From assembly GCA_030145305.1 (NCBI GenBank), contig JAQYVX010000003.1, positions 1 to 64,000 on the forward strand: 64,000 bases of DNA, given 5' to 3'. How positions within the stretch are numbered: the first letter of the stretch is position 1; the number at the start of each line of letters is the position of its first letter. The notes below the pieces were generated by a model. The model saw only the letters and a list, made by a program, of their open reading frames with translations, was not told where the DNA came from and ran no database searches. Shown here piece by piece: positions 6,942 to 47,621 of this stretch. The DNA is from Halarcobacter sp. (GTDB taxonomy: Bacteria > Campylobacterota > Campylobacteria > Campylobacterales > Arcobacteraceae). Made by a program: the position numbers and the translations under genes.

Positions 6942-8102
6942 TTAGGAAAAACATCTTTTCATATTAATTTCGAAAATTGACCCATTTTCATGGTTTGAAA
7001 CACTTATCTTTCCTTGCATATTAGTCTCAATAATTGTTTTACTCATATATAAACCAATACCTGTACCTTTGCCTTCTTCTTTTGTAGTAAAATAAGGTTC
7101 AAAAATCTTATTTATTATGGAGTGTGGTATTCCACCTGCATTATCTTTTATAATAATTTTTATATCTTCTTCTTGACTATAAATATCTATAAGAATATTT
7201 CTATTCTCAGAACTAGCTTTAATCTCCAATATTGCATCTTTTGCATTTTGTAAGATATTTATGATAACCTGAGAAAATTCATTTACATATCCATCTACTA
7301 AAAAGTGATCTTTATATTTATTATCATTGTAATCCAATACTTTTTCATCATCAATTGATAAAATGATTCTTATTTCATTATTTATAAAAGCTGCATCAAC
7401 AATTGATATTGCATTTATGATAGATTTCGTTATATCAAATGGTTTTTTGTATTTACTTGGAATAAAAAAGTTTCTAAAATCATCAATTGTTTTTGACATA
7501 TATAAAATATTTTGTTCTGCTGCATCAATTCTATCTTCTAAATACTCACCTGTTAATTCTCCATCTTCATGACACTCTTCTATATTCATTAAAATACCAC
7601 CTAAAGAGGTTAAAGGTTGTCTCCATTGGTGAGCAATACTAGCAATCATTTCTCCCATAGAAGCTAACTTTGATTGTTGTATTAATAATTGTTCTTGTAT
7701 TTTATTTCTATTATTTAACTCTTTTTGAAGCACAGCTGTTTTTATATGATTTGCAATTCTAAGTTTTAATTCTTCTTTAAAAAAAGGTTTCGTTATATAA
7801 TCAACTGCACCAGAATCTAAAGCTTTAATAATTACTTCTTTTTGAGTCTTTGCTGTTATAAAAATAATAGGGATATCTTTTGTTTCATCATTATTTTTTA
7901 AAATATGAGCAACTTCAAAACCATCCATTTTAGGCATTTGAATATCTAAAAGTATTAAATCTGGTAGAATTTTTTTAGCAATATTTATAGCTATTAAGCC
8001 ATCATATGCGACTTTTAATTCATATTTATTATTTAATATCTCAACTAATATTTCAACATTTGTAGCTTCATCATCTACTATTAATATAGTGCTTTTATTC
8101 AT
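6942..8102 (-). CDS. REC-histidine kinase hybrid (soluble)
   Basis: A 386-residue cytoplasmic protein. The N-terminal REC (about 5-120) has D10/D11, phospho-acceptor D53 in LLDIQMP and K105. A short coiled coil leads to a kinase core with H158 in IAHQWRQPL, an H-box variant recurrent in this genome. HATPase motifs follow: N-box [11 protein letters not shown]1 DNAGGI and G2 GTGIGLYMS. No membrane helix is seen. It starts within the last 8 bp of the 929-residue hybrid kinase, so the two are translationally coupled and probably form a phosphorelay. Confidence 0.9.
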
Positions 8103-10884
8103 AAATTCTTCTTTTTATATTTTTTAAGATTTCTTCTAATTTTTCATAATCGTTAGTCTCAAAACTTCTATGCATTTCCTCTAAAAGTTTTAATTCAATT
8201 TTATTTTCTAAAGAATTATATAGAGTTTCAACTCTTTCTTTTTTTATAAAATTAAAATTTTCTATATCATATAGAAGAGAATTTAATAACTCTTCTAAGT
8301 CATCATTTTTTAGAATACTCTTATTTCCAATTATAAGAGAAGGGACATTTATTTCTATTGATTTAAGAATTATTTCAATTTCATTAATAAGCTTATTGGT
8401 TTTTTCATTTACATCCGTAGAAGTGATATTTTCTTCAATATATGAGCTTAGATTATATACCTCTTGAATTTGTAAATTCCCACTAACTCCCCTTAATTTA
8501 TGGATATAAGAGAGAAATTCATTAGATTTTATTTCTAGTTTTTCTAACTCAATTCTTATATTAGAATATGTTTTTGAGAAGTTTAGCAGTAATTTTAAAA
8601 TCTCTTGTTCTTCTAATCCTAAAAATTCAACAGTTTTTTCAATATTTAAACCTTCTATTAAAACATCTTTTTTTTCTTCTTTTTTATGCTCTTCTTTTTT
8701 AATCATTTTTGTTTTCAAATATTTTGAAAGAACTTTTTCTACTTCTTCCCAGATTATTGGTTTAGCAAGATGATTATTCATACCAACTTCAGAAGTTAGT
8801 TCCTTATCTTTATCCAAAACAGCAGCACTTAATGCAATAATTGGTGTAGTAATATCACGTTTACGAATTCTTTTCGTTGCTTCAAATCCATCCATAATTG
8901 GCATTTGCAAATCCATAAAAATTATATCATACTTAGATTCTTTTGTTTTGTTCAAAGCCTCTAAACCATTTGAAACAATTTCAACATCCAAACCATATTT
9001 TTCTAAATTTTTTAAAGCAACTATTTGATTGATTTCATTATCTTCTACTAATAAAACTTTCCCTTTTGCTTGAAAGAGTAAAGACTTATCTTTCTCCTCT
9101 ACTGCTAAAATGTATTTATTATTAATTCTCTTTTCATCCATACTTAAATGTCCAATATCATCTAAAAATTGAAGTTTAATTGTAAAGGTAACTTTTGTAC
9201 CAAGATCTTTTGTACTTGTAATAAAAATTTCTCCCTCCATTAAAGTGATAATTTGTCTACAAATCATTAACCCTAAGCCTGTTCCTCCATATTTTCTTGT
9301 ATTAGAATTATCTCCTTGTTCAAAAGCAGAAAAAAGTTTTTTTATATTTTCTTTTGAAATACCTATTCCTGTATCTTCAATACAAAATTCCAATTCTATA
9401 TCACTTAAAGCTTTGCTTATTTGTTTTATAGCAACTTTAATTGTTCCATTTTCAGTAAACTTCACAGCATTTCCAACAAGATTATTTAAAATTTGCATAA
9501 TTCTTAAACTATCCCCTTTTAAAACTAAAGGTATATTTTCATCTACTTTAAAAATTAGCTCAACATTTTTTTCATCTAGTTTATATCCAAATAAATTATT
9601 CACATTATCCAAAAGTTCTTGCAGTCTAAATTCATGTTTATCAATATTTAACTTACCAGCTTCCATTTTTGAGTAATCCAAAATATCATTGATAATATTT
9701 AATAAAGCTTTTGAGGAACTTCTAGATTTAAGAAGATATTCATGTTGTTTCTTTGATAACTCAGTATCTAGGATTAAATCTGTTAAACCTATTAAACCAT
9801 TTAAAGGTGTTCTTATCTCATGACTCATATTTGCTAAAAATTTCGATTTACTTCTATTCGCTCTTTCTGCTTCTTCTTTTGCTAATTTTATGTCATTAAT
9901 TAAATTTGAGAATATTCTTGAGAGAATAAAAGAAAATATTGCAGAAATAAAGAATACAATCAAAGCTACAACGAAGTATTCTGCTATTTTTTCTTCTTTT
10001 TGAGCACTCAAATAAGACTCTTTTAGTTTAAATATAAGAAAATACTTATGATTCGTATTTATAGAAAGTTTTTTGGATACAAAATCATTGGATACAAAAA
10101 GCTCTTTTTCTAAAATTGACTTTGATAAAAGACCAAATTCATCTTTTAAGTTATATTTCATATCTTGATAAAAAGACCAGTTTTTTGATTGATTAAAGTG
10201 TCTTAAGATATAACCGCTTGAATCAGATAAAATTATCTCAAATATTTCTGAACTCAAAAGTTCATTTAATTTTTCTTTCATAAAATAATTTATAATTAAA
10301 ATACCACCAAAACTCTCTTCTTTTTTTATTGGAAGTATTATTCTTAGTGTAGATTTATAAGGTGATTCAACTTCTCCATTTTCTTCATTTAAATCAATAT
10401 CTGAATACCAAATTTCTCCAAGTCTTTCATTCTTGGGGCTAGTAAAATAGTCTCTTCGATTTTTATTTTGAAGAGACTCATTCTCTACAAGCTTTGCTTC
10501 AGAAGCGATTTCAGCTCTTTCTGCCCTAATTTGTTCATATCCCATATTATCAATAAATCTTAATTGCATAAGATTAGGATCGGTTTTAACTAAAGCAAGG
10601 AAAAGATCTTTTATTTGATTTTTATTTTCTTGATTATCACTACTTAAATAACTTTCAAATATTTTTGATTCTGAAACTGATTTTAAAATATTTTTATGAG
10701 AATCCAATAAAAGTTCAAAAACATGGTCTCTCTCTTTTGATTTCTCAATTGCATTTTTTAGTGTTCTTTCTTTTGTTTGTTTTGAAAAATAAAAGATGTC
10801 AACTGATATAAAAGATATAATTAATCCAATTGAAAATATAAATAACAAGTTAAATATTTTGATTTTACTTATTTGAGATTTCAT
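8095..10884 (-). CDS. Membrane hybrid histidine kinase with REC and HPt domains
   Basis: A 929-residue protein. There is a TM helix at about 12-32, a periplasmic Cache-like sensor domain to about 300, a second TM at about 303-328 and a linker. HisKA has the H-box [11 protein letters not shown] near residue 350. HATPase has DTGIGI and GTGLGL. REC starts at about residue 610 with [11 protein letters not shown] and the phospho-site [11 protein letters not shown]. The C-terminal HPt-like domain carries [12 protein letters not shown] near residue 765. This is the full BarA-type tripartite phosphorelay layout. It lies directly upstream of, and overlaps, the REC-kinase gene at 8102. The ligand of the Cache domain is unknown. 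Confidence 0.9.
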
Positions 10885-30375: not shown

Positions 30376-31485
30376 ATGAATTTTATAATATTTGCAACAA
30401 TATTTTTATCAGTAATGACACTTCTTACATTTTTTATCTCAAGAAGATTTGTAAGAAAGGTTCATTTTTCAAAAAAAATAAAAATCTTTATCAATACATT
30501 TCTGATTTTTAATCTACTTGGAGTTGCAGCTTATATATTTGCAAGATATAATCCTAGTATGCCTAATTGGGCATATTTTTTACTCTCAATTCCTATTGGC
30601 ATAATCTTCTTACTTTTTATTGCTACAATCTTTTATGAAATCTCATCGAGGATTTTAGATACTGTTCCTATGAGTAATAAAAGAAGAGATTTTTTCAAAA
30701 AGAGTTTGGATATTGGTTCTGTTGCAATTGCTGGTTCTATTAATGCAAAAGCCATGTACAATGCAAAACATATAGAGCTTGAAAAAGTAAAAGTTAAAAT
30801 AAAAAATTTAAAACAACCCTATTCTATTGTGCAATTAAGTGATGTTCATATTGGAGGATTAATAGATAAAACCTTTATTAAAAATCTAGTTCAAAGGGTA
30901 AATAAACTAGAAGCTGATGTTGTAGTTATAACAGGCGATTTAGTTGATACAAATTTAATATATGCAAAAGAAGCCTTAAATGAATTAAAAAATCTTAAAT
31001 CTAAATATGGTAACTTTTTCATAGTTGGTAACCACGAATATTTTCATGGTGTAGCTTCTATTATCAAATATGTTAATACTTTAAATTTTAAGACTTTAGA
31101 AAATGAAAATGTTTATATTGGAGAAAAAGGTAAAGGCTTTTTCTTAGCAGGAGTTTATGATGTACTTGGATATAGAATCAATGCATATAAGCCTGATTTA
31201 AATAAAGCATTAATTGGAATAAATGACGAACCTACTGTCTTACTAGCACATCAACCAAGATTTATAAAAAAAGTTAAGAATATAGATTTAATCTTAAGTG
31301 GACATACTCATGGTGGGCAAATTGCTCCATTTAATTTATTAGTTAAACTACAACAACCTTATGTAAAAGGTTTACATCAACATAATGAAAAAACACAGAT
31401 TTATGTAAATAAAGGAACAGGATTTTGGGGACCACCTATGAGGCTTGGAGCTAGTTCTGAAATCACTTACTTAGAATTAGTATAA
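30376..31485 (+). CDS. Membrane-anchored metallophosphoesterase (YaeI-like)
   Basis: A 369-residue protein with three N-terminal membrane helices (about 1-20, 33-55, 65-90). A calcineurin-like phosphoesterase domain follows from about residue 140, with all metal motifs: DVHIGG, GDLVD, GNHEYFHG and SGHTHGGQ. YaeI-type enzymes hydrolyse UDP-2,3-diacylglucosamine or other pyrophosphate lipids; the substrate here is unknown. A shorter, soluble paralogue lies at 40536-41273. Confidence 0.88.
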   Translation: MNFIIFATIFLSVMTLLTFFISRRFVRKVHFSKKIKIFINTFLIFNLLGVAAYIFARYNPSMPNWAYFLLSIPIGIIFLLFIATIFYEISSRILDTVPMSNKRRDFFKKSLDIGSVAIAGSINAKAMYNAKHIELEKVKVKIKNLKQPYSIVQLSDVHIGGLIDKTFIKNLVQRVNKLEADVVVITGDLVDTNLIYAKEALNELKNLKSKYGNFFIVGNHEYFHGVASIIKYVNTLNFKTLENENVYIGEKGKGFFLAGVYDVLGYRINAYKPDLNKALIGINDEPTVLLAHQPRFIKKVKNIDLILSGHTHGGQIAPFNLLVKLQQPYVKGLHQHNEKTQIYVNKGTGFWGPPMRLGASSEITYLELV

Positions 31486-34890: not shown

Positions 34891-34981
34891 AAGGTTTATG
34901 AATTTTTATTAATATTTTATTCATAATACTTTCATCATTAAGCTGTATACTTCCATAAATTTATATTATTTAGGAGAATTA

Positions 34982-35641
34982 ATGAATCAATCTTATATTT
35001 GGAGTTTACCAACAAGGGTGTTTCACTGGTCTTTTGCCATACTTATTTCTATTTGTTTATTAACAGATGATGATCTGTTAACAATCCATATTATTTCTGG
35101 ATACTTAATTCTAATCCCTTTTACTTTTAGACTAACTTGGGGCTTAATTGGCCCTAAATACTCAAAATTTAAAGATTTCCCTCTTAGTCTAAAAAAAGCA
35201 AAAGAGTTTTTACTAAATATATTTAATAAAGAACAAAAATATGTAGGACATAATCCTGTAGCCTCTTTTGTAATGATTCTTATTCTTTTAATTGTTCCTA
35301 TTATAATCTTCACTGGAATGTTAACTTTAGGAGCAGAAGAAGCAAAAGGATTTTTCTCATATATAGGTAAAAATAAACTTTTTGAAGATTTACATGAACT
35401 TTTTTCAAATCTTATGTATTTTCTTATCTTTGCCCATCTTGCAGGAATTGCAGTAGATAAATTACTTCACAAAAATCATGGAACATTAGAATCTATTTTT
35501 AAAGGTTATAAAAATACAAAAAATATAGAAAGTATAAAAATAAATATTCTTCAAAAACTTTTTGCTCTAATATTTTTGTTTATATTTATTTTCTTCACAA
35601 TATACTTAATATTTTATTCTAATAATCCATTTATAAACTAA
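34982..35641 (+). CDS. Di-heme b-type cytochrome (b561/hydrogenase-type)
   Basis: A 219-residue protein with four or more membrane helices and a cytochrome b561/Ni-Fe-hydrogenase cytochrome b pattern. PTRVFHWSFAI lies in helix 1, TIHIISGYLILIPFTFRLTWG in helix 2, and DLHELFSNLMYFLIFAHLAG supplies later histidines. It probably moves electrons between quinone and a periplasmic partner. AGGAG precedes the ATG. It stands 100 bp before the ABC/CcoN-like/YceI operon, and cytochrome b561 genes often neighbour YceI genes. Confidence 0.85.
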   Translation: MNQSYIWSLPTRVFHWSFAILISICLLTDDDLLTIHIISGYLILIPFTFRLTWGLIGPKYSKFKDFPLSLKKAKEFLLNIFNKEQKYVGHNPVASFVMILILLIVPIIIFTGMLTLGAEEAKGFFSYIGKNKLFEDLHELFSNLMYFLIFAHLAGIAVDKLLHKNHGTLESIFKGYKNTKNIESIKINILQKLFALIFLFIFIFFTIYLIFYSNNPFIN

Positions 35642-35654
35642 TCTTTACTAAATA

Positions 35655-35686
35655 AATAGAATATGAATTTTTTTTCATATTCTATT
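35655..35686 (+). terminator. Hairpin between the cytochrome b gene and the ABC permease
   Basis: A perfect 13-bp stem (35655-35667 with 35674-35686) has a loop of six T residues. There is no T run after the stem, so it may attenuate rather than fully stop readthrough into the operon starting at 35743. Confidence 0.55.
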
Positions 35687-35742
35687 CATTAAACTGTCAT
35701 ACCAACTTGTTATATTTACACAAATTATAATAAGGAAAAGTA

Positions 35743-36825
35743 TTGATTTCATCTGCATTAAAGGCATTACAAGCCAATAGATTAAAAACTACATTAATAT
35801 ATTTAAGTCTAATATTTTCTATTACTTCTATATTTTTAATTAGTTCTATTTCTAATGGTATTATTACTATGTATTCATCTATGTTGAAAAGTGATGGAGA
35901 TATAATCATCACTCAAGCTAAAATATCTGATACATTTTTTTCAAATGTAGATATTAATTTAATTGAAAAAATAAACAAACTATCAAATATAAAAGATTCA
36001 TCTGCAATTATTGTAGGTGCTTCTCCTGTTGAAAAACTTCCAATTGTTGCTGTTTATGGAATAACAAAAAATAGATTTATTAACTATAAACTAGTAAAAG
36101 ATTCATATCCAAAAGAGAATGAAGTTTTAGTTGGACAATCAATTTATGAGCAACTTAAAAATAAAAACTCTATTGAAATAGCAAATAAATCATTTAAAGT
36201 TTCTGGTGTTTTTAAAAGCTCAATAGGTTTTGAAAATGGGGGAGTTGTTTTAAATATAAAAGAAGCTGGTGAAATTTTTAATAAAAGTGCTTCTATGATT
36301 ATGGTAAATAGCAAAATAGATACAAATATTGAAAAACTAATAAAAGAAATCCGCACTTTAAGTTCAAAAATAGAAGTGAAATCTACAGATAATTTTGTAG
36401 ATAACTACAACCAATTTAAAATTATTCAAACCTCATCAAATGCTATTTCTTTTATCGCTTTTGCAATGGGATTACTTGGAATTGTAAGTATTATGAGTAT
36501 TACTATAAATCAAAGAAAAAGTGAATTTGGGATCAAAAGAGCTCTTGGAATTGCTATGAAAAAAATAGTTTTTCAAATTATGAGTGAAAGTTTTATTCTT
36601 GGTTTTTTTAGTTTTATATCTGCTTTTTTCTTATCACATATTATTTTATATTTTATAAAAAATTCATCACAATTGCAAGGTTATGTAAATGGAGAAATTT
36701 CATCAACTCTAGCTATATATATTTTCCTAACTTCAATACTTATGGCTATGGTAGGAGCAGTTATTCCAGCACTTAATGCAGCAAAAACAGACCCAGTTAT
36801 TTTAATCCAAGGAAATAAAATATGA
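35743..36825 (+). CDS. MacB/FtsX-type ABC transporter permease
   Basis: A 360-residue protein starting at TTG 35743, with AAGGA six bases upstream. One N-terminal helix (about 17-40) is followed by a periplasmic MacB-like domain and three C-terminal helices of the FtsX core. The segment SITINQRKSEFGIKRALGI is the conserved coupling region. Such permeases drive mechanotransmission or lipoprotein/substrate extrusion rather than classical import. It overlaps the ATPase gene by 4 bp. Confidence 0.88.
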   Translation: MISSALKALQANRLKTTLIYLSLIFSITSIFLISSISNGIITMYSSMLKSDGDIIITQAKISDTFFSNVDINLIEKINKLSNIKDSSAIIVGASPVEKLPIVAVYGITKNRFINYKLVKDSYPKENEVLVGQSIYEQLKNKNSIEIANKSFKVSGVFKSSIGFENGGVVLNIKEAGEIFNKSASMIMVNSKIDTNIEKLIKEIRTLSSKIEVKSTDNFVDNYNQFKIIQTSSNAISFIAFAMGLLGIVSIMSITINQRKSEFGIKRALGIAMKKIVFQIMSESFILGFFSFISAFFLSHIILYFIKNSSQLQGYVNGEISSTLAIYIFLTSILMAMVGAVIPALNAAKTDPVILIQGNKI

Positions 36826-37442
36826 TAAAAGCACAAAATATATCACACTCTTATTCAAAGGATATTGCTCTAAAAAATATTAACTTTGAGATTAAAAAAG
36901 GTGAATTTGTAGCAATTACAGGTGAAAGTGGAAGTGGTAAATCAACACTTCTTTCAATACTGTCAACTCTTTTAAAAGCAAAATCTGGTGAAGTTTTATT
37001 TGAAGATACTAACTCTAAAAATATAAAAGATATTGATAGCTTTAGACAAAAAAATATTGGGTTTATCTTCCAATTCCATTATTTAATTAACTATTTAACA
37101 ATAAAAGAAAATATCCAAATTGCAAATGAAAATTCAACAAAAGAAGAGATAGAAGAGTTATTAAAACTGTTAGGAATAAAAAATATTCTAAATAGATATC
37201 CAAATGAAATTTCAGGAGGTCAAAGACAAAGAGCTGCTATTGCAAGAGCACTTATTAATAAGCCAAAAGTAATTTTTGCAGATGAACCAACAGGAAATCT
37301 AGACTCAATAAATTCACAAAATGTATTTGACATATTTAAAAAACTATCGAATGAAGGAACAACAATAATAGTTGCAACCCACGACTTGAAATTAGCTTCA
37401 AAAACGGATAAAACAATAGAGGTAAAAGATGGACAACTTTAA
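36822..37442 (+). CDS. LolD/MacB-type ABC ATPase
   Basis: A 206-residue nucleotide-binding subunit. Walker A is GESGSGKST, the Q-loop follows, the signature is ISGGQRQR, Walker B is VIFADEPTGNLDS and the H-loop is ATHDLK. Size and the EPTGNLDS motif place it with LolD/MacB/FtsE. It overlaps the permease by 4 bp and the CcoN-like gene by 14 bp, so all three are translationally linked. Confidence 0.93.
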   Translation: MIKAQNISHSYSKDIALKNINFEIKKGEFVAITGESGSGKSTLLSILSTLLKAKSGEVLFEDTNSKNIKDIDSFRQKNIGFIFQFHYLINYLTIKENIQIANENSTKEEIEELLKLLGIKNILNRYPNEISGGQRQRAAIARALINKPKVIFADEPTGNLDSINSQNVFDIFKKLSNEGTTIIVATHDLKLASKTDKTIEVKDGQL

Positions 37443-38991
37443 TAATTTTATACAAACACATTTTAAAATATCGTTAATATTTTTTGCTCTTGGTTTAATA
37501 TTTGGATTTTTTTATTCTCTTAATTTATTAGGTTTTACAGTTGATTCTCAAACTTTATTACCTACAAATATAAGAGCTCTTCATATCTCTTTAATGCTTT
37601 ATGGATTCATTCCTTTAATGCTTTCATATTTACCTTTTTTACTTATTAATAAAGAAATTGGAACTTGTAAAAAAGGTTTACACTATTTAAATCTATATAC
37701 TATTTTTTGGTATATTTTTTTAATCTTCATGATAAGCTCACTTCTTTTTGGAAATACTAGAGGTTTGGCATTTTATGATTTTCCTTATGAGTTAAATTTT
37801 ATTTTAGCTTTTGCTGGTCTTTTTTATATTATTGCTTTATATAATTTCATCAAACAATATGAAGTTCATCCTGTATGGGTAAAAGTATGTTTAAGAGTTG
37901 TGATTATTGCCCCAATTACCCTTTTAATTTTAATGAATCCAATTATTGGGCAGGTTGAAAGTACTGTTTCTGGACCACATGGAGATAATACATTAGGAAT
38001 GAGTTTAGCTCTTATTCCTCTATATTATTTAATCATTAAGTTATTAAATAAAGATGAGTTTATAGCAAGATGGAATCTCTTATGGATTATTCCTAGTTTT
38101 TTATATTTTTCTTCTGTTTTGTATAGGATTTTCTTTGAACCATTAACATACAATCAAGAATGGTTTTTACAATATCTAACACTTCTTTATGTGCCTTTAT
38201 TATATAGATGGTACAAAGATTCAAATATAGAAAATTTTGCAAAACTTGCACTTCTTATATCAATACTTGCTTTTCTTTTTGTTGATATTGAAGGGAATAT
38301 TCTTTTTATTCCTGATATTAGATGGATATTTCATAGAAATGATTTAATAGTTGCCCATGCTCATGTAGCAATGGGAATTGGTGTTTTATTTATGGTTTTA
38401 TCTATGTATACATCGCATATTAATAGTCTTAAAAAAGTATCTTTTTATTATCTTTACCTTTTAGGATTAATTGGTATCTTTGCTAGTCTAAGTCTTTCAG
38501 GTTTTGTTCAAGCTGATATTTTAAATATGAATATTTCAACATTATGGATTTTAAGATCAATCTTTGGCTTTATTACAATATTAAGTTTACTCTTTTTTAT
38601 TCAAAATAAATACAATCTAAGTACTTTACAAAAATACAATTTATTAGGTGTTTTAAGTGATGGCTTTGGAGGTATTGGGCTTATCCTTTTGGCAAGTTTT
38701 ATTTACCCACTTCTTGGCTTTTCTTTTACAGGAACTTATGAATATATTGTTTTTTCTTTTGTAAGTATGACAGGTGTTTTACACTTTATGGCACTTAAAT
38801 ATAAAGAACATGAAATTATTCTTACAAATATCACAGTTACTATAAGAGTTTTTATATCTTCCGTTTTCTTTGCCCTATTTATGGCTAAAACATTAGGCGT
38901 TGAAGCCTTAATTATCAGTGCTTTTGATTTATCATTTGTACTAATTTATTTAATCTTTTTTTATCAAAAGGAGTCTTTATGCAAAAATTAA
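37429..38991 (+). CDS. CcoN/NorB-like heme-copper oxidase subunit I homologue
   Basis: A 520-residue protein with about 12-14 membrane helices. RALHISLMLYGF (H52) matches helix II of CcoN. GPHGDNTLGMSL (H184) resembles helix VI. NDLIVAHAHVAMGIGV (H310, H312) matches helix X, which ligates both hemes in family members. The adjacent HH pair expected in helix VII is not seen in residues 225-265. It may therefore bind heme without a normal Cu/Fe-B site. It overlaps the ABC ATPase (14 bp) and the next gene (13 bp). Confidence 0.75.
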   Translation: MDNFNNFIQTHFKISLIFFALGLIFGFFYSLNLLGFTVDSQTLLPTNIRALHISLMLYGFIPLMLSYLPFLLINKEIGTCKKGLHYLNLYTIFWYIFLIFMISSLLFGNTRGLAFYDFPYELNFILAFAGLFYIIALYNFIKQYEVHPVWVKVCLRVVIIAPITLLILMNPIIGQVESTVSGPHGDNTLGMSLALIPLYYLIIKLLNKDEFIARWNLLWIIPSFLYFSSVLYRIFFEPLTYNQEWFLQYLTLLYVPLLYRWYKDSNIENFAKLALLISILAFLFVDIEGNILFIPDIRWIFHRNDLIVAHAHVAMGIGVLFMVLSMYTSHINSLKKVSFYYLYLLGLIGIFASLSLSGFVQADILNMNISTLWILRSIFGFITILSLLFFIQNKYNLSTLQKYNLLGVLSDGFGGIGLILLASFIYPLLGFSFTGTYEYIVFSFVSMTGVLHFMALKYKEHEIILTNITVTIRVFISSVFFALFMAKTLGVEALIISAFDLSFVLIYLIFFYQKESLCKN

Positions 38992-39983
38992 ATTTACAAA
39001 AAATAACACTACAGAAATTAGCTTTAATACTTTTTATTTCTTCTGAATTGTGTTATTACTTATTGATTGCACAAACAGGAATTGTAGAATATTTTTCATC
39101 TAATATTTTTACCATTGCCCCACTTCCTATTGGAGGAATAATTGGTTCATTTTTAACTTATTATATGAGAATATCAAATAGAAATAAAATATTATTATTT
39201 TTAATTTTTCAACTAATTATGAGTTTTTTCTATCCTAATTTATCAATTCTTATGCTTTTTATTTTAGGCTTAAGTGTAGGAGCATTAGCACCACTTTTAA
39301 TTAATGAATTAAAAAAAGCAAGCTTAATAGACTTAGGGTTTGCACTATCAATCTCTTATGTAGTTGGAACTTTTTTATTTAATTATGAAGCTTCTCTAAG
39401 AGGTAATTTAGCAACAGGACTTACTCTATTAACTCTTATATGCTCTGAATTTTTACCAAATAAAAATAAAAAAGATATAAACAATAAAAACTATCAAGAG
39501 TTTTCACTATTAGCAATGGTTTTATGGGTATTTTTAGATTCTGCACTTTTTGAAACTCTTTCAAGAGATATTTCGATTTCAATTTGGAGAGATGGCTACA
39601 GTTTAGAGATTGCATTATTTCATATTATTGGAGTCTTTACAGCTTTAAAATATCAAATATCAAAAAATCAAAAAGAATTATTTATTTCAATACTTTTTGC
39701 TCTTAGTTATCTTTTTTATTTTTTAGAAGAATCTTTTATTTTATCACTTGTTTATCCTTTTGTAATCTCTTATTACAATGTGGTAATACTTCAAACAATA
39801 ATGAAAAAAAATATACGTATTATTAGTATTTATATGATTTTTATAGGATGGATAGCATCAGGAGCTGGTCTTTTTATAGCCTTAGAAAATTTAATTCTAT
39901 TTGTACCCATTGTATTACTACTTATTGTATTAAAAATACTTAGCACACAACAAAATCAAAAGAAGGAGTTTAATTATGCGTAA
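38979..39983 (+). CDS. Unknown polytopic membrane protein
   Basis: A 334-residue protein with about 10 hydrophobic helices. Its repeated pattern is weakly MFS-like, but I recognise no motif and cannot name a family. It overlaps the CcoN-like gene by 13 bp and the YceI gene by 8 bp, so it is embedded in the operon. A membrane-complex or transport role is only inferred from position. Confidence 0.75.
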   Translation: MQKLNLQKITLQKLALILFISSELCYYLLIAQTGIVEYFSSNIFTIAPLPIGGIIGSFLTYYMRISNRNKILLFLIFQLIMSFFYPNLSILMLFILGLSVGALAPLLINELKKASLIDLGFALSISYVVGTFLFNYEASLRGNLATGLTLLTLICSEFLPNKNKKDINNKNYQEFSLLAMVLWVFLDSALFETLSRDISISIWRDGYSLEIALFHIIGVFTALKYQISKNQKELFISILFALSYLFYFLEESFILSLVYPFVISYYNVVILQTIMKKNIRIISIYMIFIGWIASGAGLFIALENLILFVPIVLLLIVLKILSTQQNQKKEFNYA

Positions 39984-40503
39984 ATTAATTTTACTTGTAT
40001 TGCTTAGCATCTTTTCTTTTGGAGATAAATTAGTATTACAAGATGGTGAAATTATGGCTCATACAGAAATATTTGGTGATTCTCAAATTAATCCAAAAAC
40101 AAAAAATATCGACTCAAATTTAACGATAAATCAGGACTTTGAATCTATTAAAGGAAAGATGACTGTCAGGTCTTTATCACTAAAAAGTGAGAATATTGAT
40201 AGAGATAAGCATATGTATGAAGTTCTAAATATTAAAATTAATCCTAGAATTAATTTTGAGATAAACACTATTAAAAAAACTAATACAGGCTATAAAATAA
40301 CTGGCTTTTTAACACTTAATGCCATAAAAAAGGAAATATCATCAAATGCTACAATTACAGAAAAAAACAAAGTATTAAAAATATTAGGTGATTTTTCAAT
40401 TAAATTAAGTGAATTTAATATAAAAGCACCATCTTTGTTCTTTCTCACTGTAAGAGAACAAATAGATATAAAATATACCCTAGCATACAAAAAGGAAAAG
40501 TAA
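39976..40503 (+). CDS. YceI-like periplasmic lipid-binding protein
   Basis: A 175-residue protein with a short signal peptide (MRKLILLVLLSIFSFG). A YceI-like beta-barrel follows, with SNLTINQDFESIKGKMTV and NPRINFEINTIK, ending in LSEFNIKAPSLFFLTVREQI. YceI proteins hold isoprenoid or quinone-like lipids in a lipocalin-like barrel. Co-occurrence with a b-type cytochrome and an oxidase-like protein supports a link to quinone or isoprenoid redox chemistry (inference). Its TAA overlaps a nine-codon ORF. Confidence 0.82.
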   Translation: MRKLILLVLLSIFSFGDKLVLQDGEIMAHTEIFGDSQINPKTKNIDSNLTINQDFESIKGKMTVRSLSLKSENIDRDKHMYEVLNIKINPRINFEINTIKKTNTGYKITGFLTLNAIKKEISSNATITEKNKVLKILGDFSIKLSEFNIKAPSLFFLTVREQIDIKYTLAYKKEK

Positions 40504-40532
40504 TGAAAAAAAATCTAGAGAATATATTTTAA
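40503..40532 (+). CDS. Nine-codon ORF coupled to the YceI stop
   Basis: ATG 40503 overlaps the YceI stop as TAATG and reads MKKNLENIF before TAA at 40530-40532. The metallophosphoesterase ATG follows 3 nt later. It could act as a translational relay to the next gene, whose own ribosome-binding site is weak, or be incidental. Confidence 0.25.
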   Translation: MKKNLENIF

Positions 40533-40535
40533 TCA

Positions 40536-41273
40536 ATGAAACTTCCAACTCCTCAAACAATAGAAGTATTTGTAAATCATTCTAATTTAGATGGTTTAAA
40601 AATACTTCAGCTAAGTGACTTACATATTAATAAAAAGATGCTAGAAAATTCATTAAATAAATTAGTAAAGATTTGCAACAATTTAGATTATGATTTTGCA
40701 GTTATAACAGGAGATATAATAGATTGTAAAGTAAGATATATAAAAGAAAAATTAAAGATATTGAATACTTTAGCTAAAAATAGACCAGTATATTTTATAA
40801 GTGGAAATCATGATATTGTTTATGGCTTAGAAGAGATGAAAAAAGAACTTAATTCTTTTTTCTTTATGGACAATACCTCTACTTATTTTGAATTTAAAAA
40901 TAATAAAATATATATTATAGGTTTAGCAGATAGGTTTTCAAAATTCTTTAAAATAAAAAGAGATGAAAAAAAGGTTCTTAATCTTTTACTTCAAAATAAT
41001 GCAACTATTTTTATTTCTCACCAGCCAAAAGATTATATCCTTGCAACAAAAACAAATACCGAGCTTTTTTTATGTGGGCATACACATGGTGGTCAGATTT
41101 TTCCATTTCATTATTTAGTAAAATTGTTTCAACCATTTTTATCTGGGCTTTTTTATAGAAATAAAACAACTATTTATGTAAATAAAGGATTAGGAACTTG
41201 GGGTATTGATTATAGATATAAAGCAAATAATGAGATTAGCATACTTAAATTAATTGCAAAAAGTGTAGAATAA
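40536..41273 (+). CDS. Soluble metallophosphoesterase
   Basis: A 245-residue calcineurin-like phosphoesterase with LQLSDLHIN, ITGDIID, SGNHDIVYG and CGHTHGGQIFPFHYLVKL. It is clearly a paralogue of the C-terminal domain of the protein at 30376-31485 but lacks the N-terminal membrane helices. The substrate is unknown; YaeI-like lipid pyrophosphate cleavage is possible. It lies 32 nt after the YceI gene and 23 nt before the response regulator. Confidence 0.88.
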   Translation: MKLPTPQTIEVFVNHSNLDGLKILQLSDLHINKKMLENSLNKLVKICNNLDYDFAVITGDIIDCKVRYIKEKLKILNTLAKNRPVYFISGNHDIVYGLEEMKKELNSFFFMDNTSTYFEFKNNKIYIIGLADRFSKFFKIKRDEKKVLNLLLQNNATIFISHQPKDYILATKTNTELFLCGHTHGGQIFPFHYLVKLFQPFLSGLFYRNKTTIYVNKGLGTWGIDYRYKANNEISILKLIAKSVE

Positions 41274-41296
41274 AGTTCTAAGAATAGAGGTATCTA

Positions 41297-41965
41297 ATGA
41301 AAATTTTAATTATTGAAGATGATCAAAAAATTATTAATTTTTTGAAAAAAGGATTAGAAGAAGAATCATATACAGTTGATTACTCTTTAAATGGTGAAGA
41401 AGGAATATATTTAGCAAGTGTTAATGAATATGACTTAATTTTACTTGATATTATGATTCCTTTAAAAGATGGTATTGAAGTTTGTAAAACATTAAGAACT
41501 TCAAATATACAAACACCAATTATTATGCTTACAGCTAAAGATTCTATTGAAGATAAAATAAAAGGTTTAGATATTGGAGCAAATGATTATTTAGCAAAAC
41601 CTTTCTCATTTTCTGAATTACTTGCAAGAATAAGAGTACAACTTCGTCCTAAAAACTCTTTTGATACCAAACTAAAAATTGCTGATTTAGAGTTAGATTT
41701 ACTTTCAAAAACTGCAAAAAGAGAAAATGACAATATTACACTTACAGCAAAAGAGTTTGCAATTCTAGAGCTTTTAATAAAAAATAAAAATAGAGTTTTA
41801 TCAGAAACAATAATTTTGGATGCCTTAAGTAATTTAGATGATATAAATATAAGTAATGTTGTTAATGTTTATATTTATAGATTAAGAAATAAAATTGATA
41901 AACCTTATGAAAAAAAACTTATAAAAACAGTTAGAGGAATGGGATTTAAAATAAATGATGAATAA
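41297..41965 (+). CDS. OmpR-family response regulator
   Basis: A 222-residue protein with a REC domain (E7/D8/D9 cluster, phospho-acceptor D51 in LLDIMIP, K at LAKPFSF) and a winged-helix output domain with LTAKEFAILELLIKNKNRVL and a C-terminal VYIYRLRNKID recognition helix. It overlaps the kinase gene by 11 bp. It lies directly after the CcoN-like/YceI operon and is the obvious candidate regulator of that block. Confidence 0.95.
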   Translation: MKILIIEDDQKIINFLKKGLEEESYTVDYSLNGEEGIYLASVNEYDLILLDIMIPLKDGIEVCKTLRTSNIQTPIIMLTAKDSIEDKIKGLDIGANDYLAKPFSFSELLARIRVQLRPKNSFDTKLKIADLELDLLSKTAKRENDNITLTAKEFAILELLIKNKNRVLSETIILDALSNLDDINISNVVNVYIYRLRNKIDKPYEKKLIKTVRGMGFKINDE

Positions 41966-43340
41966 ACTTTCAATTAAAAAAAAGCTCTTAATTTATGTAT
42001 TTTTCATTCAATTGAGTATTTTAGTAATTTTCTCTTTTTCTTTACATAGAGCCTTAGAAATTTCAACTTTAGATAAATTACAAAGTACTTTAAAAGTAAT
42101 TTTACTTGATGTTATTGATGATATTTTAGAGCAAAAAGATATAAATGATTTAAAAGATTTCAATGAAGAAAAAGAGTATAAATTTGAACCTTTATATATT
42201 AGATTACTACAAGTTCAAGCTAAAGAAAAAAATACAATCAATATCATAAATACAAAAAATTTTCCAAAAGAGATAAAAGAAGATTTTGAAATTATAAACT
42301 CTTATGCTTTTGATACTATTATTTTTGAAAATAAAGAGCTTTATTTAATTAGTAAACTAAAATTTAATCTTGGAAATACTAATTATTTACTAGAAGTAGC
42401 TACTAATAATAATCTAAATAGTACATTAGAAAATCTTTTATATATACTTCTTTTTATCATACCTATTGTACTTATTTTTGCAACTATTGGTGGATACTCT
42501 TTAATTTATAGATCATTTTTACCTATTGAAAAGATTTTAAATCATTTAAAAAATATAAATGCTTCTGATTTATCAAAAAGATTAGAGACTTCTAATAATG
42601 AAGATGAAATAGACTTACTTGCAAAAGAGATAAATTCTCTGTTAACAAGACTTGAATTATCATTTGAAAAAATTTCTCAATTTTCTAGTGATGCTTCTCA
42701 TGAATTGAAGACTCCTCTTACTGTAATTAGAGGTGAAATAGAGATTGCTTTAAGAAAAGAACGCTCAAAAGAAGAATACAAAGAAACTTTAAAAACCTCT
42801 TTGGATGAAGTATTAGTAATTCAGCAAACTATGGATGATTTACTTTTTTTAGCTAAATCCAAAAAAAATTTACAAAATATTGAAAAAGAAGTTTATTTAG
42901 ATGAAATAACTTTAGAAGCAGGAAAAGAACTAGAAACCTTTGCTAGAATCAAAAAAATTAATATAGAGTATGAAATTAAAGAAGCTCAACAAATAAGTGC
43001 CCACTCAAAACTTTTGAAAATCGCTTTAAAAAATATAATAAAAAATGCTATAACCTTTAGTCATGAAAACTCTTCGATTTATATAAAAAATTATTCTGAT
43101 GAAGACTATTATCTAATAAGTGTCGAAGATAAAGGTATAGGAATAGCAAAAGAAGACCAAGATAAGATTTTTGAACAGTTTTATAGAACAGATAAAAGCA
43201 GAAATAAAGAAACTGGTGGAACTGGACTGGGCATGGCCATTTGTAAAAAAATTATAAATATGCATAATGGAAAAGTTTTAGTTCAAAGTAAAGAGAATAT
43301 GGGAACAATAATTATATTTAGTTTTCCAAAAAATTATTAA
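41955..43340 (+). CDS. Membrane sensor histidine kinase
   Basis: A 461-residue kinase with a TM helix at about 12-32, a periplasmic domain of about 125 residues, a second TM at about 160-182, a HAMP region, the H-box SDASHELKTPLTVIRGE, N-box ALKNIIKNAI, DKGIGIA and GTGLGMAICKKI. It is the cognate partner of the overlapping OmpR-like regulator. The size and arrangement resemble CusS/QseC-type metal or envelope sensors, but the ligand is unknown. Confidence 0.93.
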   Translation: MMNKLSIKKKLLIYVFFIQLSILVIFSFSLHRALEISTLDKLQSTLKVILLDVIDDILEQKDINDLKDFNEEKEYKFEPLYIRLLQVQAKEKNTINIINTKNFPKEIKEDFEIINSYAFDTIIFENKELYLISKLKFNLGNTNYLLEVATNNNLNSTLENLLYILLFIIPIVLIFATIGGYSLIYRSFLPIEKILNHLKNINASDLSKRLETSNNEDEIDLLAKEINSLLTRLELSFEKISQFSSDASHELKTPLTVIRGEIEIALRKERSKEEYKETLKTSLDEVLVIQQTMDDLLFLAKSKKNLQNIEKEVYLDEITLEAGKELETFARIKKINIEYEIKEAQQISAHSKLLKIALKNIIKNAITFSHENSSIYIKNYSDEDYYLISVEDKGIGIAKEDQDKIFEQFYRTDKSRNKETGGTGLGMAICKKIINMHNGKVLVQSKENMGTIIIFSFPKNY

Positions 43341-47168: not shown

Positions 47169-47621
47169 ATGAAAAGAATTTTATTTTCAATTTTGTTATT
47201 TGTTGCAACTTTTGCTAACGCTTTAAATATTGGTGATGCTACACCAACATTTGAGATTAAAGATCAATTTGATAAAAAACATGTAATTGCTAGTGATACA
47301 AAAACTATTTTAGTTGCTGCTGATAAAGATACAAGTACAATATTAAAAGAATATTTTTTAGCTAAAGATGCTAATTTTTTAACTACTAATAAAGCTTACT
47401 ATGTAGCTGATATTTCAGGAATGCCAAGTCTAATTGCAAAATTCTTTGCTTTACCAAAAATGAAAGATTATCCATTTTCTGTACTTTTAGTTGATGAAGA
47501 ACAAACAAAAGCATTTACTAAAAAAGAAGATAATATTACAGTTTATACTGTGACAAATGGGAAAATATCTGATATTAAATACGTAAAAGATGCTGCTGGA
47601 TTAGATTCAGTATTTAAATAA
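47169..47621 (+). CDS. Periplasmic thioredoxin-fold-like protein without cysteines
   Basis: A 150-residue protein with a signal peptide (MKRILFSILLFVATFANA). The mature N-terminus (IGDATPTFEIKDQFDKKHVI) resembles peroxiredoxin/TlpA-type or YtfJ-like proteins, but there is no cysteine, so no disulfide or peroxidase chemistry of the usual kind is possible. AGGAG precedes the ATG and a strong terminator follows. Function unknown. Confidence 0.8.
   Translation: MKRILFSILLFVATFANALNIGDATPTFEIKDQFDKKHVIASDTKTILVAADKDTSTILKEYFLAKDANFLTTNKAYYVADISGMPSLIAKFFALPKMKDYPFSVLLVDEEQTKAFTKKEDNITVYTVTNGKISDIKYVKDAAGLDSVFK

Follow-up and report, generated by a model that had tools for sequence, protein, structure and literature searches.

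A stretch of 64,000 nucleotides from Halarcobacter sp. (contig JAQYVX010000003.1, positions 1-64,000; called the window below) contains at 34982-43340 a cluster of nine genes, the core of which consists of an FtsX/LolD-type ATP-binding cassette (ABC) pair, an oxidase-fold protein lacking the CuB ligands (the CcoN-like protein), a membrane protein with the fold of the major facilitator superfamily (MFS; TM334) and a YceI-family protein. A small exported protein and a metallophosphoesterase are the usual additions to this core. We tentatively read the cluster, with a probability of roughly 0.36, as an inducible inner-membrane module for envelope maintenance, which would be part of a PmrA/QseB-like regulon and whose core would extract and redox-handle an isoprenoid or quinone lipid. 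A more specific version appears more doubtful to us, namely that an oxidase descendant with a lost oxygen site provides the redox function in a complex that extracts a lipid or quinone at the expense of ATP, with delivery via YceI, envelope-stress control and a patchy occurrence throughout the phylum.

The conservation of the gene set is well supported, and its genes recur side by side in many free-living relatives of Campylobacter. From 115 loci anchored on the gene for the CcoN-like protein, 92 remained at 95% identity of this protein and 56 after dropping 36 with short flanks. The same-strand run around the anchor gene in these 56 Campylobacterota loci includes FtsX in 56, LolD in 56, TM334 in 55 and YceI in 54 cases, showing that the core genes do stay together in related genomes, which the initial annotation had named as the point to check. 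The small exported protein (42 loci) and the metallophosphoesterase (41) are less constant, as are the sensor histidine kinase (33) and the response regulator (31; weak matches counted for both), and cytochrome b is found in the run only four times. The gene order varies, with the small exported protein located 5' of FtsX in many Sulfuricurvum-labelled loci, this protein together with the metallophosphoesterase in several Sulfurimonas-labelled ones, and TM334-YceI in the Sulfurovum-labelled loci L111, L113 and L127. Because the set is kept while its order differs between lineages, the association is more than chance, and these sequence comparisons suggest that it is probably maintained by selection and not by recent descent alone. 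Among 397 Campylobacterota genomes of at least 90% completeness, which are related and hence do not represent 397 independent trials, the CcoN-like protein and TM334 each occur in 60, and these are the identical genomes for both.

The features of the window are as follows, with all coordinates on the plus strand.
34898..34935, +: operator copy before cytochrome b, ATGAA-N6-TTCAT-N6-TTCAT-N6-TTCAT with 1 mismatch, 47 bp 5' of the ATG
34982..35641, +: cytochrome b561/Ni_hydr_CYTB protein, 219 amino acids (aa), PF01292 with E 9e-25
35663..35700, +: operator before the FtsX operon, 1 mismatch, 43 bp 5' of the TTG start
35743..36825, +: FtsX/MacB-type permease, 360 aa, TTG start, PF02687 and PF12704
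36822..37442, +: LolD-like ABC ATPase, 206 aa, TIGR02211 at 208 bits (cut-off 307.75), best PDB match LolD 2pcj
37429..38991, +: CcoN-like protein, 520 aa, predicted haem-copper-oxidase fold without CuB ligands, about 120 extra C-terminal residues
38979..39983, +: TM334, MFS-fold membrane protein, 334 aa, no Pfam or NCBIfam family
39976..40503, +: YceI-family protein, 175 aa, divergent, PF04264 at 58.6 bits (cut-off 23.7), periplasmic as judged from its family
40536..41273, +: calcineurin-like metallophosphoesterase, 245 aa, YaeI/LpxG-like, PF00149; NF008460 and NF033458 below cut-off
41297..41965, +: OmpR-family response regulator, 222 aa, PF00072 and PF00486
41955..43340, +: sensor histidine kinase, 461 aa, PF02518, PF00512 and PF00672
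47169..47621, +: paralogue of the small exported cluster member, outside the operon, of uncertain relation to the system

All nine genes proposed in the initial annotation are open frames with the family matches assigned to them, and their tight packing holds for the eight from FtsX to the kinase (35743-43340), each of which overlaps the next or lies within 32 bp of it. The overlaps amount to 4 bp (FtsX/LolD), 14 bp (LolD/CcoN-like), 13 bp (CcoN-like/TM334), 8 bp (TM334/YceI) and 11 bp (regulator/kinase), and the gaps to 32 bp (YceI to metallophosphoesterase) and 23 bp (metallophosphoesterase to regulator). The packing does not extend to the cytochrome b gene, which ends 101 bp 5' of FtsX and probably forms a separate transcript; as it has its own operator copy and is in the run at only 4 of the 56 loci, it should be regarded as a co-regulated neighbour rather than as part of the conserved core. 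An AT-rich hairpin between cytochrome b and FtsX was rejected as a terminator, since its arms are the ATGAA and TTCAT elements of the operator. A terminator scan returned one site, within the CcoN-like gene, with 1.7 expected; neither an Rfam scan of the window nor a plasmid search gave a match.

The CcoN-like protein is the most unusual member of the core. Its AlphaFold2 model (mean predicted local distance difference test score, pLDDT, of 77) shows the approximately 120 C-terminal residues as extra helices, and the best structural match of residues 1-398 is NorB (3o0r; Z 24.2, root-mean-square deviation (rmsd) 4.4, 373 aligned residues), next to CcoN at Z values of 21 to 22; the best E value in Foldseek is 6e-4. 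The COX1 family (PF00115) scores 29.4 bits against a cut-off of 34.8, or 38.4 bits with neighbours in frame, and exceeds this cut-off in the relatives at L041 (36.1) and L036 (36.3), while a PDB sequence search with the profile of the CcoN-like protein gave no match. In a 108-row alignment, from which frames of at least 560 aa or not above 300 bits were left out and in which near-duplicates were kept (hhalign kept 62), the histidines H52, H184, H302, H310, H312 and H452 as well as D186, E244 and Y241 are invariant in all rows. As judged from a global profile alignment with the CcoN encoded in the same genome (probability 47.8%, E 3e-5), a second aligner and the structure match, H52, H310 and H312 fall on the haem-ligand columns and D186 on a CuB-histidine column of CcoN, the ligand roles of these columns being those that we take to apply to CcoN. 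The local alignment with CcoN covers residues 286-393 only (13.9%), and with the other sets of oxidases and NO reductases the global profile alignments were either weak or of no use. Opposite the HH pair of CcoN, in columns that are aligned globally and left unaligned by the second aligner, a single histidine occurs at column 237 in 20 and at column 238 in 17 of the 108 rows; an HH pair is found in none of the rows between columns 215 and 262, and a full CuB histidine set in none of them either. The three retained haem-ligand histidines, the replacement of a CuB ligand by D186 and the absence of the HH pair indicate, from alignment and model, that the protein has the haem-copper-oxidase fold with an incomplete CuB site and is conserved in that form throughout the family. 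It accordingly shares the subunit I fold and the predicted haem histidines with the haem-copper oxidoreductase superfamily, but appears to lack the CuB/FeB histidines of a functional oxidase or NO reductase. Three other loci (L172, L173 and L174, in genomes G020, G091 and G107) encode a separate membrane family of about 425 aa with weak COX1 scores of 21 to 30 bits, which may likewise have the oxidase fold without being an oxidase.

The initial annotation had listed TM334 as an unknown polytopic protein, which still applies at the level of sequence families, as Pfam and NCBIfam scans of 41 TM334 members gave no MFS family, but not at the level of the fold: the AlphaFold2 model built from the 41 sequences (pLDDT 93.5) is recognizably that of an MFS protein (8ufd; Z 25.0, 303 aligned residues, rmsd 4.0), with many MFS entries close behind. 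For the ABC pair, a PDB sequence comparison gave five matches to the permease, namely MacB (the best one), an ABC permease and YtrF, with HrtB absent from this list, and the LolCDE equivalog models give 208 of 307.75 bits for LolD (TIGR02211) and 30.3 of 362.45 bits for LolC/E (TIGR02212). ABC proteins of the Lol type lift hydrophobic cargo from the membrane to a periplasmic carrier. The small exported protein usual in the relatives, which is thioredoxin-like by eye only, is lacking at the corresponding place in the window. The product of 47169-47621, a small, exported, cysteine-free protein without a Pfam match, was rejected as a relocated member of the operon and is regarded as a separate paralogue, because copies of 89% and 82% identity are in the cluster-free genomes G005 and G003, compared with 38 to 43% identity to in-cluster copies. 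Upstream of the cluster, the window encodes a second metallophosphoesterase (30376-31485, 369 aa), which by eye has N-terminal membrane segments and resembles that of the cluster.

The operator preceding the FtsX gene, ATGAA-N6-TTCAT-N6-TTCAT-N6-TTCAT with a period of 11 bp, is well supported by sequence comparison as an element tied to the cluster. It is present with at most 1 mismatch in 20 positions upstream of FtsX in 37 of 37 distinct sequences from loci with a response regulator match of at least 380 bits (window included), and dinucleotide shuffles of these upstream regions reach 4 mismatches at best. Loci without such a match have it in 1 of 51 cases where no regulator was matched (L065, whose contig ends before the regulator) and in none of 7 with a weaker one. 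Whole genomes were searched for 27 of the 40 known cluster-bearing and for 21 cluster-free Arcobacteraceae: a site with at most 1 mismatch lies about 1.7 kb 5' of the CcoN-like gene, and thus by position before FtsX, in 27 of 27 of the former and is found in 0 of 21 of the latter, four of which contain 2-mismatch sites. Over all 48 genomes the pattern yields 45 sites and the reversed control 8; the 2-mismatch sites are at noise level, as there are 9 of them against these 8. The genome of the window (3.03 Mb, 77 contigs) contains only two sites with up to 2 mismatches, at 34898-34935 and 35663-35700. The two-box core TTCAT-N6-TTCAT is found ahead of the gene that opens the cluster in 24 of 28 loci whose regulator scores high and in 25 of 55 others, compared with 0.05 and 0.09 expected from shuffles (0.14 in all); nine of the 92 loci were dropped from this count for short upstream sequence, and the 55 include loci with a lower-scoring regulator or truncated by a contig end. 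In the 25 of these others that have it, the core lies ahead of whichever gene leads the run, be it FtsX, TM334 or the small exported protein. Taken together, the TTCAT array is strongly suggested to be the putative binding site of the adjacent OmpR-type regulator in Arcobacteraceae.

Nine further sites with at most 1 mismatch are present in eight cluster-bearing genomes. Two of them precede cytochrome b, in the window genome and, by coordinates, in G001. Of the remaining seven, three are located before Sulfatase-domain membrane proteins confirmed by Pfam (L247, L248 and L249), and two before 634-aa proteins (L250 and L251) that start like that of L247 and are assigned to the Sulfatase type by this likeness. 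The other two precede an EptA-PAP2-DgkA set in an Arcobacteraceae genome (L252, 533-3180) and a DUF5666 protein accompanied by another response regulator and kinase (L253). In addition, EptA-like and DgkA-like genes follow the metallophosphoesterase on the same strand in L051, L053 and L055, with Pfam confirmation for L055 only. PmrA and QseB boxes are 11-bp direct repeats. Among family models, the regulator and kinase match those of the heavy-metal and HprR type best, in no case reaching the cut-off, and the regulator obtains 178.7 of 330 bits with NF007928 and 150 of 345 bits with NF007663 when compared with the PmrA/QseB family models. Since the putative regulon elsewhere includes Sulfatase-type enzymes and an EptA-PAP2-DgkA set, the inducing signal is likely an envelope or cationic-peptide-type stress, as for PmrAB/QseBC. 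The view that the cluster has its own two-component regulator is borne out by the adjoining genes and the operator, but it does not hold universally (regulator in 31, kinase in 33 of the 56 loci).

YceI proteins resemble lipocalins and bind octaprenyl compounds or ubiquinone-8, and a pair of b561 and YceI proteins limits lipid peroxidation in Burkholderia, where the authors presume that b561 re-reduces the bound quinone; the YceI lipocalin BcnA is also able to bind antibiotics (all from the part of PMC9113575 considered here). What we infer for substrate, chemistry, regulator binding, electron path and MFS role is that an envelope-stress signal would cause the OmpR-type regulator to bind the TTCAT array and to switch on the FtsX operon and cytochrome b561. 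The ABC pair would then act in a LolCDE-like manner on the outer leaflet of the inner membrane, lifting an isoprenoid or quinone lipid out of it and loading this lipid onto YceI, and the MFS-fold TM334 may move the lipid or its headgroup across the membrane. The CuB-less protein with its two predicted haems would mediate electron transfer between the menaquinone pool on one side and the cargo or a partner in the periplasm on the other, rather than reduce O2. The core may be seen as an ATP-driven version of b561-YceI chemistry with the CuB-less protein as its redox part, and the net effect would be protection or repair of envelope lipids, much like the lipid-peroxyl defence of LcoA-BcnA. The quinone- or isoprenoid-linked redox or extrusion function suggested in the initial annotation is plausible, and the apparent co-regulation of Sulfatase-type/EptA genes, DgkA and PAP2 adds an envelope-stress context to it.

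Several observations weigh against this reading. The LolD and LolC/E scores are under their cut-offs, the YceI protein of the operon is divergent (58 bits, whereas the other two YceI copies of this genome score about 150) with ligands borrowed from other family members, and both the LolA-like hand-over and the part assigned to the MFS-fold protein are guessed from fold. The occurrence is also patchy, with 60 of 397 genomes and 18 of 68 genera represented. On the regulatory side, the Arcobacteraceae locus L068 (G057, outside the 27 genomes), which has a weaker regulator, shows 7 mismatches to the operator, and 30 of the 55 loci without a high-scoring regulator lack the exact box pair, including all 8 that start with the metallophosphoesterase. 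Only 11 loci, even counting duplicates, have EptA-type genes next to them, and DgkA is separated from the regulator by an opposite-strand gene in L051, L053 and L055.

Among the alternatives, we think it unlikely that the CcoN-like protein is still an enzyme acting on a small gas or an oxyanion (such as NO, O2 or another ligand) at a high-spin haem, with the CuB ligands replaced by D186, H184 or E244 or the second metal absent altogether, and that the ABC, MFS and YceI proteins assemble or supply it. Its nearest folds are indeed those of NorB and CcoN, the invariance of D186, H184, E244, Y241 and H452 indicates that some site is conserved, and a single histidine is kept at column 237 or 238 in some rows, but the full CuB histidine set is missing from every row and none of the nine genes matches the CcoO, CcoP or NorC families. 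A link to N2O respiration was also rejected, since NosZ is found in 9 of 23 cluster-bearing and 10 of 20 listed cluster-free Arcobacteraceae and hence shows no association. Export of toxic amphiphiles or cationic peptides by a MacB-like system under PmrAB-type induction, with the haem protein and YceI in accessory sequestration or sensing, would fit the MacB_PCD and FtsX domains, the best PDB match of the permease, the two-component system, the Sulfatase-type and EptA genes behind the same operator and the binding of antibiotics by BcnA (as given in the same part of PMC9113575). However, neither a MacA-type adaptor nor an outer-membrane channel is among the nine genes, and oxidase-fold and MFS-fold proteins that are nearly always present are not expected in a simple drug exporter, making this an improbable explanation as well.

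HrtBA-HssRS is a system of haem homeostasis in which an ABC pair is regulated by its own two-component system. By analogy, the ABC pair of the cluster might extract excess membrane haem, with the CcoN-like protein as haem-holding partner, an idea which the combination of ABC pair, two-component system and haem-protein fold would accommodate. We nevertheless consider it very improbable, as the permease matches MacB, an ABC permease and YtrF, which is not conclusive, and as the other operator sites do not precede recognized haem-synthesis or haem-export genes, though two precede cytochrome b. There is, furthermore, a rather small chance that several independent envelope functions are joined by shared regulation alone, with no common complex or substrate. 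That the metallophosphoesterase, the small exported protein, the regulator, the kinase and cytochrome b come and go, and that EptA and DgkA join some loci, would agree with this, whereas the five-gene core is nearly invariant despite its reordering, and two of its members, the CcoN-like protein and TM334, are identically distributed over the 397 genomes.

Regarding further relatives, the closest titled record to the CcoN-like protein of the window among the matches listed is an Arcobacter metagenome-assembled genome (87%), with Poseidonibacter ostreae at 81%. A scan of the species genome collection found 102 relatives, and the 80 of these 102 that were listed carry Campylobacterota labels or vague or doubtful ones (L086, L100, L103); the peptide patterns used were strict, and distant relatives elsewhere are possible. 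Two of 38 matching genomes in one genome search, G107 and G112, gave short weak matches only. The cluster also decays, as seen from a CcoN-like frame with 8 stops in G442 and a TM334 gene in two pieces in G091. Between these two pieces (L034, about 7700-8600), other frames are present, one of them transposase-like by eye. A 736-aa frame in L037 was rejected as a fusion of LolD and the CcoN-like protein, being an upstream out-of-frame reading. A protein family whose copy in L038 (3393-4976) has an HD_5 domain lies near the cluster in 15 loci including duplicates, and at several of these, such as L038, L039, L044 and L046, it comes directly after the kinase. Another family, whose copy in L110 (12989-13966) has a metallo-beta-lactamase fold, is near the cluster in 25 loci including duplicates, on the same strand in 9.

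No published description of the gene cluster was found in the literature searched, which mostly did not extend to subscription literature; the initial view of an undescribed combination is consistent with this result, within the limits of that search. The loss of CuB ligands combined with strict family-wide retention of haem ligands would, if true, represent an unusual second life of the oxidase fold, and the CcoN-like family poses the testable question of which role is left to this fold once oxygen chemistry is gone. The cluster also provides an ATP-driven partner and a regulator for YceI proteins, supplies a DNA site ready for testing, and includes two families for which no model exists: TM334 is absent from both Pfam and NCBIfam, and the small exported protein matches nothing in Pfam.

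A comparison with known systems shows partial likeness to several of them. The system resembles LcoA-BcnA of Burkholderia, as far as described in the part of PMC9113575 considered, in combining b561 and YceI proteins, here apparently under one operator and in a context of antibiotic or envelope stress, and its YceI protein is a member of the lipocalin family (PF04264 above cut-off). It differs in that b561 is a separate unit, rarely in the run and not directly 5' of YceI, with FtsX, LolD, the CcoN-like protein and TM334 lying between, in the divergence of YceI, and in the addition of the ABC pair, the CuB-less oxidase-fold protein and the MFS-fold protein to the core. With cbb3 CcoN and NorB, the CcoN-like protein shares the subunit I fold and three haem-ligand histidines, and an HxxD....HxH motif is common to it and the CcoN of this genome, whereas it lacks the CuB ligands, carries extra C-terminal helices with the invariant H452 and has no partner subunit among the nine cluster genes. 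LolCDE is matched by the LolD-type ATPase, the FtsX-type permease and the neighbouring periplasmic protein of a lipid-binding family, but the cluster contains a single permease gene, YceI in place of LolA, and scores below the LolD and LolC/E equivalog cut-offs. PmrAB and QseBC similarly have an OmpR-type regulator and an 11-bp direct-repeat box before envelope-modifying genes, and EptA, DgkA and PAP2 stand behind the same box as the cluster in one genome (L252); the box sequence here is TTCAT, and the regulator stays below the PmrA/QseB family cut-offs. Finally, the genes upstream of the P. ostreae cluster (L070), which encode a DUF1924 cytochrome, a dihaem cytochrome c and a cytochrome b-DHC chimera, recall the SHP operon, as the part of PMC2909971 considered here describes SHP, DHC and cytochrome b genes together with QseC-type sensors, one of the associated sensors being QseC-like.

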